Source: a virus. From it: a stretch of 35,952 nt of DNA. The DNA lies in the IMG/VR virus record IMGVR_UViG_3300008450_000175, positions 1 through 35,952 of that record. The stretch is one strand, 5' to 3'. This document shows, piece by piece, positions 3,218 to 17,450 of the stretch. A model generated the notes under the pieces. That model did no database searches, had not been told where the DNA came from, and saw nothing but the letters and a program-made list of their open reading frames with translations. Made by a program: the position numbers and the translations under genes. Position 1 is the first letter of the stretch. Each line of letters starts with the position of its first letter.

Positions 3218-3591
3218 AAACCAAGCTGACCCTCGCAGCCCTTCCTCCGAGCGTCAACGCGATATGGCGTCACGGCAAAGGCGGCAAGACATACCGAACA
3301 GCGGCCTACATGACGTTTATTCGAGGAGAGGAATGGAACGTCCAGCCGCAGCTTATCAAGCAGCATCGCTTTCGCGGCCCGGTTTATGTGACAATCGCCA
3401 TGAGGCGTCCGCGATCCAATGCGGACCTGGACAATCGCATCAAAGGCATTCTGGACTTTTTGCAGCACGTTGCCGCGATAGACGATGACAAAAACGTATA
3501 CGGCGTCAACGCATTTTGGACCGTTGACCTTCCTGCGGGCGTGGCTGCGGAAATATCCATTGTTCAGGCTGACGCGCTGGAGGCCGCATGA
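3214..3591 (+). CDS. rusA: RusA-family Holliday junction resolvase
   Basis: About 125 residues from ATG 3214; a GTG at 3205 is an alternative start. Visible family features are the N-terminal LPPSVNAIWR with Y.T..Y..F, and the acidic active-site cluster SNADLDNRIKGILDFLQ plus AIDDDKNV. RusA dimers cut four-way junctions using three conserved Asp residues, two in the DLDN region and one in the DDDKNV loop, all present here. Together with ERF it would resolve annealed recombination intermediates or prepare concatemers for packaging. It starts and ends in ATGA overlaps. Confidence 0.92.
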   Translation: MKTKLTLAALPPSVNAIWRHGKGGKTYRTAAYMTFIRGEEWNVQPQLIKQHRFRGPVYVTIAMRRPRSNADLDNRIKGILDFLQHVAAIDDDKNVYGVNAFWTVDLPAGVAAEISIVQADALEAA

Positions 3592-4100
3592 ACTGGACCC
3601 CCGAAACCATTGACGAACTGATCCGCCTCTGGCGTCAGGGCCTCACGTCTTACCAGCTAGCCAAACATTTCAACACAACCCGCAATAGCATCATGGGCAA
3701 ACTCCACCGCGAGAAACTGCGCCGCGCCACTCAGGGCGAACCGATAGAGCGCCGCACCATCGCCAATACCGGAACCATCACCAAACGACGCTACACACGG
3801 AGGGAAGCCATGTTGACTTTGCCTGAACGTGCCGGGTCTGTATTGCGTATTGTAGAGCCTGCTCCCGTGGTACCAGATCAGGGGCAGCTTGCTAGCATCG
3901 TGGACGTGACCGGGTGTCGCTGGCCCGTGAAGGATGACCCGGAGTTTATAGGCGGCTTTGCCTTCTGCAACCACGCCCAGCGGGACGGCTCGGCGTATTG
4001 CGAGTATCACGCCCGGATGAACGTCGCCCCGTGGAGCGCAGACGCCAAGCGGCGCACGGAAGCAACGATCAATTACATATTGAAGCGGGTGGCAGCATGA
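3588..4100 (+). CDS. gcrA: GcrA-family cell-cycle regulator
   Basis: The 170-residue protein has the GcrA layout: an N-terminal W-T-ID-L-RLWRQGLTSYQLAKHFNTTRNSIMGKLHR helix-turn-helix (residues 3-41), a variable basic linker, and a C-terminal GCRWPV (C110), FAFCNHA (C127) and AYCEYHA (C138) motif set typical of the family. In Caulobacter, GcrA binds sigma-70 holoenzyme and activates promoters with methylated GANTC sites. A phage copy could redirect host RNA polymerase to phage promoters or match phage transcription to the methylation state of DNA. Its presence is the main argument for an alphaproteobacterial host. Confidence 0.92.
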   Translation: MNWTPETIDELIRLWRQGLTSYQLAKHFNTTRNSIMGKLHREKLRRATQGEPIERRTIANTGTITKRRYTRREAMLTLPERAGSVLRIVEPAPVVPDQGQLASIVDVTGCRWPVKDDPEFIGGFAFCNHAQRDGSAYCEYHARMNVAPWSADAKRRTEATINYILKRVAA

Positions 4101-4695: not shown

Positions 4696-4784
4696 GTACG
4701 GCAGCCTTTCTTCTCATAGCCGTGATTGCCGAGTGCGCCGTCCTGTGGCTGGCCTATTCAATGGGGAGGGACATGGCGCAATGA
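4692..4784 (+). CDS. 30-residue single-pass membrane protein
   Basis: Starts in ATGA with the previous gene and ends in ATGA with the replication gene. The product is mostly one hydrophobic helix (AAFLLIAVIAECAVLWLAYS) with a short MGRDMAQ tail. It has no other coding frame over most of its length. Unknown role; the exact fit between two overlaps supports that it is translated. Confidence 0.65.
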   Translation: MSTAAFLLIAVIAECAVLWLAYSMGRDMAQ

Positions 4785-5551
4785 GCAGATGGTTCCGCAT
4801 GTACTCAGACGTTCTGGACGATCCAAAGGTTCAGAAGCTCCCCGCCGATTTGTTCAAGGCATGGGTCAACCTCCTATGCCTTGCCAGCCGCAATGATGGT
4901 GTGCTTCCCGCACTGGAAGACATCGCCTTCGCGCTCCGCATGTCACAAGATGTCACTGTGACAGTCACAGCGGAGCTTGTGAAAAGGGGTTTGCTTGATG
5001 AGTGTGACGGGCTTTCGCCGCACAATTGGGCCGAACGCCAGTTCAAGAGCGACACGCCGGAAGATGCTAAAGAGCGGAAAAGAAAGCAACGGCAGCGCGA
5101 AAAACAGCAGCAAAACACCGATAATGTCACGGAATGTCACAGTGACAGTCACAACGAAGTCACGCCCCCAGAACAGAGCAGAACAGATACAGAGCAGAGC
5201 AGAGCAGAGCAGACGCCCGCGCGCACTCAAGACCCAAAGCATTGGGAAGAGGTCCAAGACTTTCTCAAACAGCCTGACAGCCTCACGGATTGGGAGGTCG
5301 ACTTCCTGCACTCGGTCAAGTGGAAGCCGTCGCTGACCGAATTGCAGCGCGAAAGCCTCAAGGGCATTCGAGACAAGCTGCGCTCAACCACCAATGGCGG
5401 GTGCATCTTGCCGTCAGTGAAGCGCGGAACCCCGGCGTATGATGCCTGGATTGCCCACTATCGCAAGACCAAGGGCAAGGCCACGTTTTACGAGAAACTG
5501 GACGCCCTCACCGTGCCATCTGAGTTCCCCCCACAGGAGCAAGCGGCGTGA
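4781..5551 (+). CDS. phage replication initiator (replisome organiser type)
   Basis: A 256-residue protein from ATG 4781. The N-terminal part, SRWFRMYSDVLDDPKVQKLPADLFKAWVNLL through LVKRGLLDE (residues 1-70), is the winged-helix domain found in phage replisome organisers and in DnaD/O-like initiators. A strongly basic coiled segment KERKRKQRQREKQ follows, then a low-complexity Glu/Gln/Ser/Arg/Thr linker, then a C-terminal helical domain (LTDWEVDFLHSVKWKPSLTELQRESLKGIRDKL) that would recruit the host helicase loader. As in lambda O, candidate origin repeats lie inside the gene. No helicase or polymerase gene is near, so the host replisome is probably used. Confidence 0.75.
   Translation: MSRWFRMYSDVLDDPKVQKLPADLFKAWVNLLCLASRNDGVLPALEDIAFALRMSQDVTVTVTAELVKRGLLDECDGLSPHNWAERQFKSDTPEDAKERKRKQRQREKQQQNTDNVTECHSDSHNEVTPPEQSRTDTEQSRAEQTPARTQDPKHWEEVQDFLKQPDSLTDWEVDFLHSVKWKPSLTELQRESLKGIRDKLRSTTNGGCILPSVKRGTPAYDAWIAHYRKTKGKATFYEKLDALTVPSEFPPQEQAA
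4940..4971. repeat. iteron-like repeat A inside replication gene
   Basis: The 32-base block contains TGTCAC twice with ten-base spacing, then GTGACA and GTCACA. Its centre is the palindrome TGTCAC-T-GTGACA. It encodes part of the winged-helix domain. Repeat B, 184 bases downstream, has the same order with five mismatches in 32 positions, in a different reading frame, so conservation is at the DNA level. Confidence 0.75.
5124..5163. repeat. iteron-like repeat B inside replication gene
   Basis: Second copy of the 32-base block (5124-5155), followed by one further AGTCAC at 5158-5163. GTCAC occurs at 5126, 5136, 5148 and 5159, i.e. every 10-12 bases, on one face of the helix. It falls in the low-complexity linker of the initiator, the position occupied by the lambda origin iterons in gene O. 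A-rich sequence (5080-5123) just upstream would suit an unwinding element. Confidence 0.72.
5170..5216. repeat. GAGCA pentamer microsatellite
   Basis: Downstream of repeat B the sequence is a run of AGAGC/AGAAC pentamers that encodes the Gln-Ser-Arg-Ala-Glu linker of the initiator. Its strand asymmetry (nearly all purine plus C) may add to easy unwinding, but it may be simple slippage sequence. Confidence 0.7.
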
Positions 5552-6228
5552 CAATTCACTATCACGGCACGCCCCTGACGCCGCGCGACCAGTTGTGGCT
5601 GATGGCGGGCAAGAGCTTTTGCGTGTCCTATGCCAACCCGCAGGATGCAGATATATGCCTGCGGATCGGGCAGTCCGTCATGTGGGATAACGGAGCGTTC
5701 AGCCTGCACACCAAGGGCAGGTCGGTAGATTGGACGGCTTATTATCGCTGGCTGGAACCACGCCTTGGTCATCCGCACTGGGCGGTCATCCCTGATGTAA
5801 TTGACGGCGACGTTGAGGCCAACGCACAACTTGTAAAGGAATGGCCGTTCCGCCGCGAACTGGCCGCGCCAGTTTGGCATCTAGCCGAACCGCTGGATGT
5901 GCTGCTGGGGTTCGCCCAAGACTTTGGCCGGGTGTGCTTCGGCTCGTCTGGTGCCTATTGGCAGGTTGGTTCCGATGCCTGGAGCCGTCGCACAGACGAG
6001 GCGTTTAACGAGATGGCCCGCCGTGGGCCGTTGCCGTGGGTCCACATGCTGCGCGGTATGGCCGTAGCCGGGAAACGCTGGCCGTTTGCCTCGGTTGATA
6101 GCGTGAACGTGGCGCGAAATTTTAACTCGTCAAACCAGTGTCCCGAAGCGATGGCACGAGTAATTGACGCCGTTCAATGCCCAATCAAGTGGAAATATCA
6201 ACCCCAGCAAATGGACCTTATTGCATGA
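5548..6228 (+). CDS. TGT/DpdA-like 7-deazaguanine transglycosylase
   Basis: A 226-residue protein starting GTG at 5548 in a GTGA overlap. Visible segments: MWDNGAFSLHTKG (the D-x-G/N-GAF motif that corresponds to the DSGGF catalytic region of tRNA-guanine transglycosylases), AVIPDVIDGDVEAN, PVWHLAEPLDVLL, GRVCFGSSGAYWQVGSDAW, and HMLRGM near residue 166. These occur in this order in the short phage TGT-like/DpdA proteins that exchange guanine in DNA for a preQ0 derivative. It is shorter than bacterial TGT. The next gene is a transporter for the same precursors, which strongly supports the assignment. Substrate (DNA or tRNA) is not decided by sequence alone. Confidence 0.72.
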   Translation: MTIHYHGTPLTPRDQLWLMAGKSFCVSYANPQDADICLRIGQSVMWDNGAFSLHTKGRSVDWTAYYRWLEPRLGHPHWAVIPDVIDGDVEANAQLVKEWPFRRELAAPVWHLAEPLDVLLGFAQDFGRVCFGSSGAYWQVGSDAWSRRTDEAFNEMARRGPLPWVHMLRGMAVAGKRWPFASVDSVNVARNFNSSNQCPEAMARVIDAVQCPIKWKYQPQQMDLIA

Positions 6229-15545: not shown

Positions 15546-17450
15546 GTGGCTCAAGGTGATCTAAGAGGTAACCTTACAGCCTCAGTTGCCAGCGTAACCA
15601 ACCCGACCAACCTCACCGGATCGGTGGCCGTCTCTGTTGGCGACCTGATCTATGTTGCCTTCTCGCAACAGACCGCCCTCACCGCAACGTCTGCGTCTGA
15701 CAACCTCGGCAACACTTACTCAGCGGTAAACGCTGGCACGGACGGAGGAACGCCGACACACCGCGCGTTCTATGCCCGCGTTACGACTGCCGGAACGCTC
15801 ACGACGATTTCAGTTGCGGCGACTGCATCAACGAACGATGCAAGCGCGGTTGCCGCCGTCATTGAGGGGCCATTTATGGTTGGCCCTCTCGACGCCAATC
15901 CGGCTAATACGACAGACGGCACAACGCCGTTTACATGCCCAGCAACGGGAACACTGGCGCAGGCCGAAGAAGTCATCATGGCTTCCATCGGCATCAACTC
16001 CAACCAGACGGTTGCCGCGTCATCACCGTTTACCCTTTCAGGGACCGTTGCCCGCGCGAACATTTCAACTGGCGTCAGTCGGCAGAAGGTCAGCGCCACC
16101 ACGACGCAGACACCGGAATTTACCGGAACCACGGCGGCTGCAGTTCAGACGACGGCGAGCTTCAAGCTCGCACGGCTGGTAACCGCCGACCCCGGAAGCT
16201 TTACCGTTTCGGGAACAGCGGCAAATTTGGAACATGGCCGCGAGATAGCGGCAGACGGCGGCAGCTATAGCATCACGGGCACAGATGCCACGCTTGTGGG
16301 GCGGCCCCCCGGCATTTTCGACACCGGGATTTTTGACACCGGGATTTTCGATCACCCGAGTGTCGCCAAGACATTATCCGCAGGGGCGGGTGCGTTTGCG
16401 TTCACTGGAACGGACGCAAGTTTAGAGCGTGGGTTTGAGGTTGCCGCAGGGGCGGGTGCGTTTGCGTTCACTGGAACGGACGCCAGCCTTGAATATGGGC
16501 GTGAGGTTGCGGGCGGCGCGGGCAGTTACGCGGTCACAGGCACCGACGCCAACCTTGAATACGGGCGTGAGGTTCTGGCGGGGGCTGGCTCCTACGCAGT
16601 CACCGGAACCGATGCGAACCTTGAGTTTGGCAGGGAAGTCCTGGCGGATGCCGGGGCATTCGCTTTTACAGGAACAGACGCAAGCCTAGAGTACGGCTTT
16701 GAAGTCCTGGCGGGTGCCGGGTCGTATGCCTTCACTGGCGTTGACGCGGCGCTTGAATATGGCCGGGAATTGGCAGCGGGTGCTGGTTCCTATGCCTTCA
16801 CGGGTACGGATGCCACGCTGCTTTATTCTGGCGGGGCAAAGGTTCTTGGGGCCGATGCTGGTTCCTATGCTTTCACTGGAACGGACGCGAACCTTGAATA
16901 TGGCCGCGAGATAGCGGCAGACGCCGGGGCTTATGCCTACACGGGACAGGACGCGAACCTTGAATATGGCCGCGAGATTGCGGCAGACGCCGGGGCTTAT
17001 GCCTACACGGGACAGGACGCAACCCTTACCTATGCCGCATCGGCCAAGGCAATCGTTGCCGAACCCGGCGCGTTCACCTTCACGGGCACGGACGCAACCC
17101 TAGAATACGCCGCCGCCAACCAGAACGTACCGCCCCCGCGGCGTTATGGCAGTGGGCAGTACGGCGAACCCGCGAAACTCATCCTGTCATGGATGCCGCA
17201 AAAGAAGCGGAAAAAGGACGAAAAGGCCAAGGTTGAGATTGTCGAGGATGCAATTGAGCAGGCGCTTGAGGCCGCTCCGGTTGCCCTGCCAATCAACCCC
17301 GAACAGGTCGAACTCGCCGCAAGGCTACTTCTTGCCGAGTATGGCTTGGCAGAGCTTCGCCGGATCAAATACGCCGAAACGCTGTTGCTTCGCATTGAGC
17401 AAGTGATGGCTGAAATGGATGACGAGGAAGTGCTGCTTCTTGCAGCCTAA
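15546..17450 (+). CDS. tandem-repeat virion protein, 634 aa
   Basis: GTG start at 15546. Three zones: an N-terminal beta region (residues 1-212), a repeat region of about 13 units near 22 residues with the theme SYAFTGTDANLEYGRE, and a C-terminal helical region with a basic KKRKKDEKAK segment and a Glu/Leu-rich tail ending DDEEVLLLAA. Between the first repeats lies a separate triple repeat GIFDTGIFDTGIFDH. The repeats suggest an extended beta-solenoid or fibre shaft that can change in length. The C-terminal helices may anchor it. The exact virion location is unknown. Confidence 0.75.
   Translation: MAQGDLRGNLTASVASVTNPTNLTGSVAVSVGDLIYVAFSQQTALTATSASDNLGNTYSAVNAGTDGGTPTHRAFYARVTTAGTLTTISVAATASTNDASAVAAVIEGPFMVGPLDANPANTTDGTTPFTCPATGTLAQAEEVIMASIGINSNQTVAASSPFTLSGTVARANISTGVSRQKVSATTTQTPEFTGTTAAAVQTTASFKLARLVTADPGSFTVSGTAANLEHGREIAADGGSYSITGTDATLVGRPPGIFDTGIFDTGIFDHPSVAKTLSAGAGAFAFTGTDASLERGFEVAAGAGAFAFTGTDASLEYGREVAGGAGSYAVTGTDANLEYGREVLAGAGSYAVTGTDANLEFGREVLADAGAFAFTGTDASLEYGFEVLAGAGSYAFTGVDAALEYGRELAAGAGSYAFTGTDATLLYSGGAKVLGADAGSYAFTGTDANLEYGREIAADAGAYAYTGQDANLEYGREIAADAGAYAYTGQDATLTYAASAKAIVAEPGAFTFTGTDATLEYAAANQNVPPPRRYGSGQYGEPAKLILSWMPQKKRKKDEKAKVEIVEDAIEQALEAAPVALPINPEQVELAARLLLAEYGLAELRRIKYAETLLLRIEQVMAEMDDEEVLLLAA
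16187..17118 (+). repeat. 66-base tandem repeats in virion gene
   Basis: About 13 imperfect copies of a 66-base unit, each encoding GSYAFTGTDANLEYGREVA-type residues. The last full pair (about 16884-17017) is almost identical at DNA level, which indicates recent duplication, whereas earlier copies are more diverged. Every copy is in frame. A separate 15-base triple repeat (GGGATTTTTGACACC type) lies at about 16312-16350. Confidence 0.85.

Follow-up and report, generated by a model that had tools for sequence, protein, structure and literature searches.

In phage lambda, the replication initiator O combines an N-terminal DNA-binding domain with a flexible linker and a C-terminal part that contacts the helicase loader, and an unwinding region lies in the neighbourhood, as excerpts of two reports describe it (PMC7466680, PMC6022878). 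In the RepA_N plasmids (pSK41, pSK1, pAD1), the origin lies inside rep and the N- and C-terminal domains of the initiator are both DnaD-like. The N-terminal domain and the origin of pPR9 and pSK41 differ together, over a block of about 500 bp, and the part of the pSK41 protein that is encoded at the iterons is dispensable (all according to excerpts of PMC5703833). The origin of the repABC systems lies inside repC, where silent mutations abolish replication, according to an excerpt of PMC3155836. For mycobacteriophage RepA an in-gene origin is suspected, and the excerpt of PMC7157519 states that no repeats were identified in the region examined.

Here we describe a viral initiator gene with two internal repeat blocks, A and B. 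The gene lies in the window, by which we mean the whole stretch of DNA that was analysed, the 35,952 nucleotides of IMG/VR record IMGVR_UViG_3300008450_000175. We consider the blocks to be candidate iterons of an in-gene replication origin that would be bound by the gene's own product, with a probability of roughly 0.85. An in-gene iteron origin is recognised by phased repeats that lie inside the initiator coding sequence and are conserved as DNA, and such repeats are present here.

The initiator gene and its two repeat blocks

The initial annotation had placed the repeats in a replication gene. This is borne out by profile matches of the product to phrog_3926 (replication initiation protein; residues 3-140, E = 1e-15) and phrog_10469 (DnaD-like helicase loader; residues 2-146, E = 4.3e-12). 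Pfam returned nothing informative for this protein, with no RepA_N among the matches up to E = 0.1, and no O-like family is found among its 12 PHROG matches (E up to 0.01). An AlphaFold2 model built from 50 aligned sequences predicts a winged-helix DNA-binding domain with HTH helices at residues 45-52 and 56-68 and a wing at 72-80, after which come a disordered linker and C-terminal helices. Judging from the usual layout of winged HTH domains, helix 56-68 is probably the one that reads DNA. Structural similarity to known initiators is weak. Foldseek gave E values of 0.06-0.18 for the PDB initiator entries 4pta, 4pt7 and 5kbj, the Z score of 8.0 against 4pql is level with those of many unrelated winged HTH proteins, and a PDB sequence search returned one weak match, to an unrelated protein.

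No helicase or helicase-loader gene was recognised adjoining the initiator among the selected ORFs scanned with Pfam and PHROG. Directly 3' of it (5548-6228) lies a queuine tRNA-ribosyltransferase gene (phrog_887, E = 2.1e-41), which may possibly serve modified DNA bases. NinB/Orf-like and ERF-type recombination genes (Pfam, PHROG) occupy 734-1839 on the minus strand, opposite to the initiator. A homologue of the cell-cycle regulator GcrA is encoded at 3588-4100 (Pfam GcrA, E = 8.9e-22); GcrA is alphaproteobacterial, which gives a hint at the host. The cumulative GC skew of the window has its minimum at 3798, a position that says little because gene direction switches nearby.

Table 1. Features of the initiator gene (positions in the window)
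Feature	Position	Strand	Remarks
Replication initiator gene	4781..5551	+	256 aa, ATG at 4781; profile matches to PHROG
Predicted winged-helix DNA-binding domain	4844..5020, codons 22-80	+	AlphaFold2, pLDDT about 95-98 per ten-residue block, 21 to 80
Candidate iteron block A	4940..4971, codons 54-64	+	GTCAC at 4942, 4952, 4964; GTGAC at 4958; encodes M-S-Q-D-V-T-V-T-V-T-A
Predicted recognition helix of HTH	4946..4984, codons 56-68	+	AlphaFold2 model and winged HTH layout
Single inverted unit GTGAC	5004..5008	-	Same gene position in L016-L018, absent in L015; membership uncertain
Candidate iteron block B	5124..5163	+	GTCAC at 5126, 5136, 5148, 5159; GTGAC at 5142; linker, N-V-T-E-C-H-S-D-S-H-N...
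CAGAG/CAGAAC array	5169..5213	+	Directly 3' of the candidate iterons; TRF; candidate unwinding or single-strand element

A recount agrees that the blocks are alike at 27 of 32 positions (4940-4971 against 5124-5155), and both have the internal layout that had been described for them, with TGTCAC twice at ten-base spacing, TGTCAC-W-GTGACA and then GTCACA. Beyond this matched part block B has an extra unit up to 5163; it starts within codon 115 and covers codons 115-125. The offset of 184 bases leaves a remainder of 1 when divided by three, so that the two copies are read in different frames, A as VTVTVT and B as CHSDSH. The units had also been placed on one helix face. Same-orientation GTCAC units do follow one another at 10-12 bases, but for the inverted unit the distance is 6 bases, and therefore not all units share one face.

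The best 32-base self-match in 400 codon-order shuffles of the initiator gene was 24, compared with 27 in the real gene. Self-matches that are equal or better occur in the window only at about 1-116 and 16.2-17.1 kb, both made of tandem repeats. The first of these, where the record begins (1-116), is a tandem repeat of 6/12 bases (GCCGGA, CCGTAGCCGGAG), and 66-base repeats (22 residues) fill 16309-17024 within a long ORF (15546-17450) of the structural region. Over the whole window GTCAC/GTGAC is not clearly enriched (82 against 67 expected, a count reached by 7 of 100 shuffles). Its two densest clusters are blocks B and A. At 5126 there are five units in 60 bases, a density attained by a fraction of 0.0006 of 5000 uniform placements, and at 4942 there are four.

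Given the helix positions in the AlphaFold2 model and the codons that block A occupies, this block would span the codons for the HTH turn and for the N-terminal half of the helix predicted to read DNA. Block B lies in the linker, and the stretch it encodes is predicted to be disordered (pLDDT below 50 at 119-127). TGTCACTGTGACA is a candidate natural site of the N-terminal domain.

There is no strong AT-rich stretch by the blocks, as GC is only mildly lowered (0.42-0.54, in 50-base steps from 5100 to 5199). The CAGAG array is the window's version of an RCAGA run that is found in the wider family: on the coding strand of 70 pooled family genes RCAGA occurs 401 times where 232 are expected, its reverse complement 68 times (62 expected), and in the 70 genes counted RCAGA peaks 0-60 nt past the last linker iteron. 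By analogy with lambda, our guess is that this run may have a role in unwinding or single-strand binding.

Related words in distant relatives and in other initiators

The family set comprised 67 distinct genes and the window gene, 68 in all, taken from 79 of the best 80 of 101 relatives; L019, a 76-aa fragment, was left out. Word counts were compared with a null in which the protein is kept and synonymous codons are randomised, with p values that treat related genes as independent. GTCAC pooled over the 68 genes is not in excess (100 against 100.2 expected), because few genes use it. The other 63 genes are rich in GTTTCA (225 against 43.4) and CGTTTC (274 against 79.6). Over all 68 genes TGAAACG is raised about nine-fold (188 against 20.6), TGTAACG about six-fold (38 against 6.3), TGGAACG less so (40 against 19.8) and TGTCACG mildly (19 against 12.2). 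These counts suggest that TG-NN-ACG may be one iteron with a variable middle.

Same-orientation units are spaced at 11-12, 22-23, 34 and 44-45 bases, with little between, which are multiples of about 11.4 bases. When the units of the 63 genes are placed by codon, in a count where overlapping 6-mers may score one unit twice, equally in data and null, there is no excess at codons 1-36. The ratio is 3.0 at codons 37-53, 6.3 at 54-65 (19 of 63 genes), 2.7 at 66-80, 5.6 at 81-92, 9.6 at 93-103 (50 of 63) and 5.3 at 104-130 (61 of 63). The linker cluster is therefore general. All five genes of the window clade have the recognition-helix cluster, as do roughly one third of the others.

A general two-block rule found no support, as only 7 of 71 genes (the 68 and three named phages) contain matching copies in two regions by the criterion of at most 3 of 60 nulls. 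These are the window, L015, L017, L020, L084, L095 and L097, with L016 and L018 as near misses at 4 of 60, and in some of the seven, for example L084, the match is not made of iterons. Matching copies of A and B thus recur without being universal. L097 is gp45 of Pseudomonas phage NC_030909, a named relative. Its gene lies directly upstream of a DnaB-like helicase gene, with a CII-like activator upstream and two small genes between, a neighbourhood much like that of lambda O. In this gene GAAAC-GTAACGTTTC occurs as two modules that lie 196 apart (nt 113 and 309) and out of frame with each other. In L182, which was found by the DNA word and is 36% identical over the matched part, the helix codons contain GTCACGCGTGACGTCACGCGTGAC (nt 169-192), and more copies follow in other frames at 357-419.

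On a tree of the N-terminal domain, made from few columns and leaving out those of block A, the GTCAC-type genes need five changes, of which well supported branches impose a minimum of three, and the GTCAC type therefore seems to have been switched repeatedly. Five rows of this tree (L141, L182, L184, L208 and L212) were found via the word, and the number of GTCAC-type rows is therefore biased. No residue was found that tells the recognition helices of the GTCAC type cleanly from those of the GAAAC type; V58-T59 is frequent in the GTCAC type and is itself encoded by the repeat.

The phasing and the placement of the units also bear on the possibility, which we consider unlikely, that the blocks are operators for the initiator or another regulator and that the origin lies elsewhere. 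TGTCAC-GTGACA is palindromic, like operator sites, including CRP-like half-sites. The blocks, however, lie 160-380 bases into the gene and form two clusters, the arrays of the relatives are phased over tens of bases, and clusters of the same word are found within the initiator genes of several families.

These other families emerged from a scan of IMG/VR with ATGTCACGCGTGACA alone, without protein information, which gave at least 120 loci in 74 distinct contexts. Among the matches listed, 47 of the 74 contexts have at least three additional GTCAC/GTGAC units no more than 100 bases away, as against less than 1% predicted from the local background. ORFs were scanned at 43 of these 47 clustered sites, leaving out L113, which belongs to the window's clade, and three short ones. 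The longest ORF over the match was taken, so some are probably in the wrong frame, and an alternative ORF was scanned singly for L117, L136 and L109. Among the matches listed, 15 of the 43 ORFs belong to Pfam DUF1376, with single members of DnaB_2, Phage_rep_org_N and DnaA_N. Thirty-one clustered-site ORFs, again among the matches listed, were compared singly with PHROG; 21 matched, at E up to 1e-5, a family with a replication-type name (replication initiation, replication, primosomal, helicase loader or replisome organizer), and 10 did not. At 27 listed sites with fewer extra units, no replication family exceeded five among 26 ORFs, and PhoH, head and SbcC were present, a picture that chance matches mixed with weaker arrays would be expected to give. 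L103 and its near-copies (35 loci among the matches listed) have ATGTCACGCGTGACA with only two more units within 100 bases; the ORF there may be in the wrong frame, and this locus is probably unrelated to origins.

ATGTCACGCGTGACA is read in all three frames, as MSRVT, VTRD and CHA. L164 is, by identity and length, gp67 of Gordonia phage DumpsterDude, in which the GTCAC/GTGAC excess alone is not significant (5 units against 2.6 expected, p = 0.06). Gene 65 of Paenibacillus phage Harrison, noted as a DnaD subunit, has 8 units against 1.9 expected. Such units are not seen in the DUF1376 gene of Xanthomonas phage Rb1, so this type is not universal. We found no report of these iterons in the open-access literature, including searches for the exact words gtcacgcgtgac and tgtcacgcgtgaca.

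As a control of the method, a blind search for the densest 6-mer in lambda O returned GAGGGA from nt 349, the start of the first annotated iteron, with 0 of 100 nulls as high. Lambda P and seven window genes served as negative controls, and in these eight the score was reached by 42 to 100 of 100 nulls. The same test picks the CAGAG run, not GTCAC, in the window gene and another 6-mer in DumpsterDude gp67, and it is not tuned to one array.

Initiator genes whose N-termini differ widely share GTCACGCGTGAC, which would also fit binding of this word by a host protein rather than by the initiator. The word type, however, varies inside one protein family and the clusters are found largely in initiator-like genes, which makes a host protein more unlikely still than operators. 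Tentatively, and at somewhat less than even odds, many phage initiators of several families might share a small in-gene iteron vocabulary (TGWAACG, TGTCACG/TGTCACGCGTGACA). In a subset one cluster would fall in the recognition-helix codons, so that site and helix would share bases and could change specificity in one step.

Conservation of the blocks as DNA in close relatives

Alignment of relatives had been set as a check that could refute the initial annotation. In the four close relatives L001-L004 (the same contigs as L015-L018), whose initiators are 58-76% identical to that of the window, the blocks are kept and their synonymous positions are conserved. Each of these genes has 10-12 GTCAC/GTGAC units in changing frames and in the same two regions, with one outlier in L004. 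Over the window gene and these four, GTCAC is the most over-represented 5-mer (54 against 23.2 after synonymous randomisation of the five genes). The layout TGTCACWGTGACAGTCACA (type I) is present in both blocks of the window and L001, and TGTCACGCGTGAC (type II) in both blocks of L002-L004; blocks A and B thus switch type together between relatives. A third match to TGTCACWGTGACAGTCACA, L098, gave no tblastn match and is without a cluster of at least four units. Two scans of contigs for relatives in host genomes gave 57 and 19 pattern stretches, none of them a confirmed relative.

Among codons that give the same residue, we compared the share that is identical inside and outside the blocks. 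Between the window and L015 it is 22 of 25 inside and 105 of 166 outside (Fisher p = 0.0098). The three pairs among L016-L018 give 17/18, 16/17 and 19/20 inside against 79/130, 76/127 and 69/131 (53-61%) outside (p = 0.003, 0.003 and 0.0001), and pairs across types I and II point in the same direction with few codons (6/8 to 10/13). Since codons are better kept inside the blocks than outside, the earlier claim of selection on DNA across frames is well supported, and the DNA repeats themselves, besides the protein, are preserved in the relatives.

That blocks A and B are alike within each gene and change together could also stem from a functionless recent duplication or gene conversion, but with this synonymous conservation, and with recurrence of the arrangement with other words in distant relatives, we regard it as highly improbable. 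Protein-level repeats, such as the VTVTVT encoded by block A, have hardly any chance of accounting for the DNA, as this reading is largely refuted by the frame shift, nearly the same DNA giving CHSDSH in block B, and by units that occur in all three frames and in excess over the protein-keeping null. An RNA hairpin in the message was rejected as the selected feature and is given equally little credence, as block A is somewhat more stable when folded than its shuffles (z = -2.18), but block B is not (z = 0.62) and larger stretches give z values of -1.01 and 0.66.

Proposed mode of action and comparison with known systems

If blocks A and B are iterons of an in-gene origin, the N-terminal winged-helix domain of the initiator would most likely bind TGTCAC half-sites as dimers or arrays on the phased repeats. 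As in lambda, binding may bend or strain the DNA such that the adjacent CAGA-rich run opens, and the C-terminal part of the initiator would then recruit the helicase machinery. Since the DNA element is part of the gene for its putative binding protein, the two are passed on as one. With block A this would go further, as on the model the site lies within the codons of the very turn and helix predicted to read it.

Most phage origins are unmapped. If these words mark origins, the origins in the genes for DUF1376, DnaD-like and related initiators, many of which still carry the annotation hypothetical, could be located by sequence. Linkers with VTRD, CHA or MSRVT would then be explained as DNA signals, not protein motifs, and there would be a natural case of a binding site and its reading helix sharing codons. 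A shared vocabulary, if true, would provide a sequence rule for locating phage origins and for predicting which origins are compatible.

The comparison with lambda made in the initial annotation fits, as the four annotated O iterons lie at codons 117-145 in three frames, against codons 115-125 for block B. Mid-gene iterons (candidates in the window) that fall in three reading frames are thus common to both. A DNA-binding N-terminus (predicted in the window), a linker and a C-terminal part that would contact the helicase machinery are also shared, and the CAGA run may correspond to the unwinding region of lambda. Lambda differs in its word, which is an 18-bp ATCCC...GGGA, in having an AT-rich region where the window has the CAGA run, and in lacking a second annotated cluster within its DNA-binding domain, and the window protein is without an O-like PHROG match. 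With the RepA_N plasmids the locus would share an origin inside the initiator gene, although the window initiator has no Pfam RepA_N match and the fold similarity is weak. The repC gene of repABC differs in that it contains a large A+T-rich region and no iterons. As lambda and the RepA_N plasmids already have in-gene iterons, the window would be a case of a known kind in its proposed working. What would be new is the position of block A, in codons for the turn and the N-terminal half of the predicted recognition helix, the change of iteron type within the family, and the presence of the GTCAC type across initiator families.
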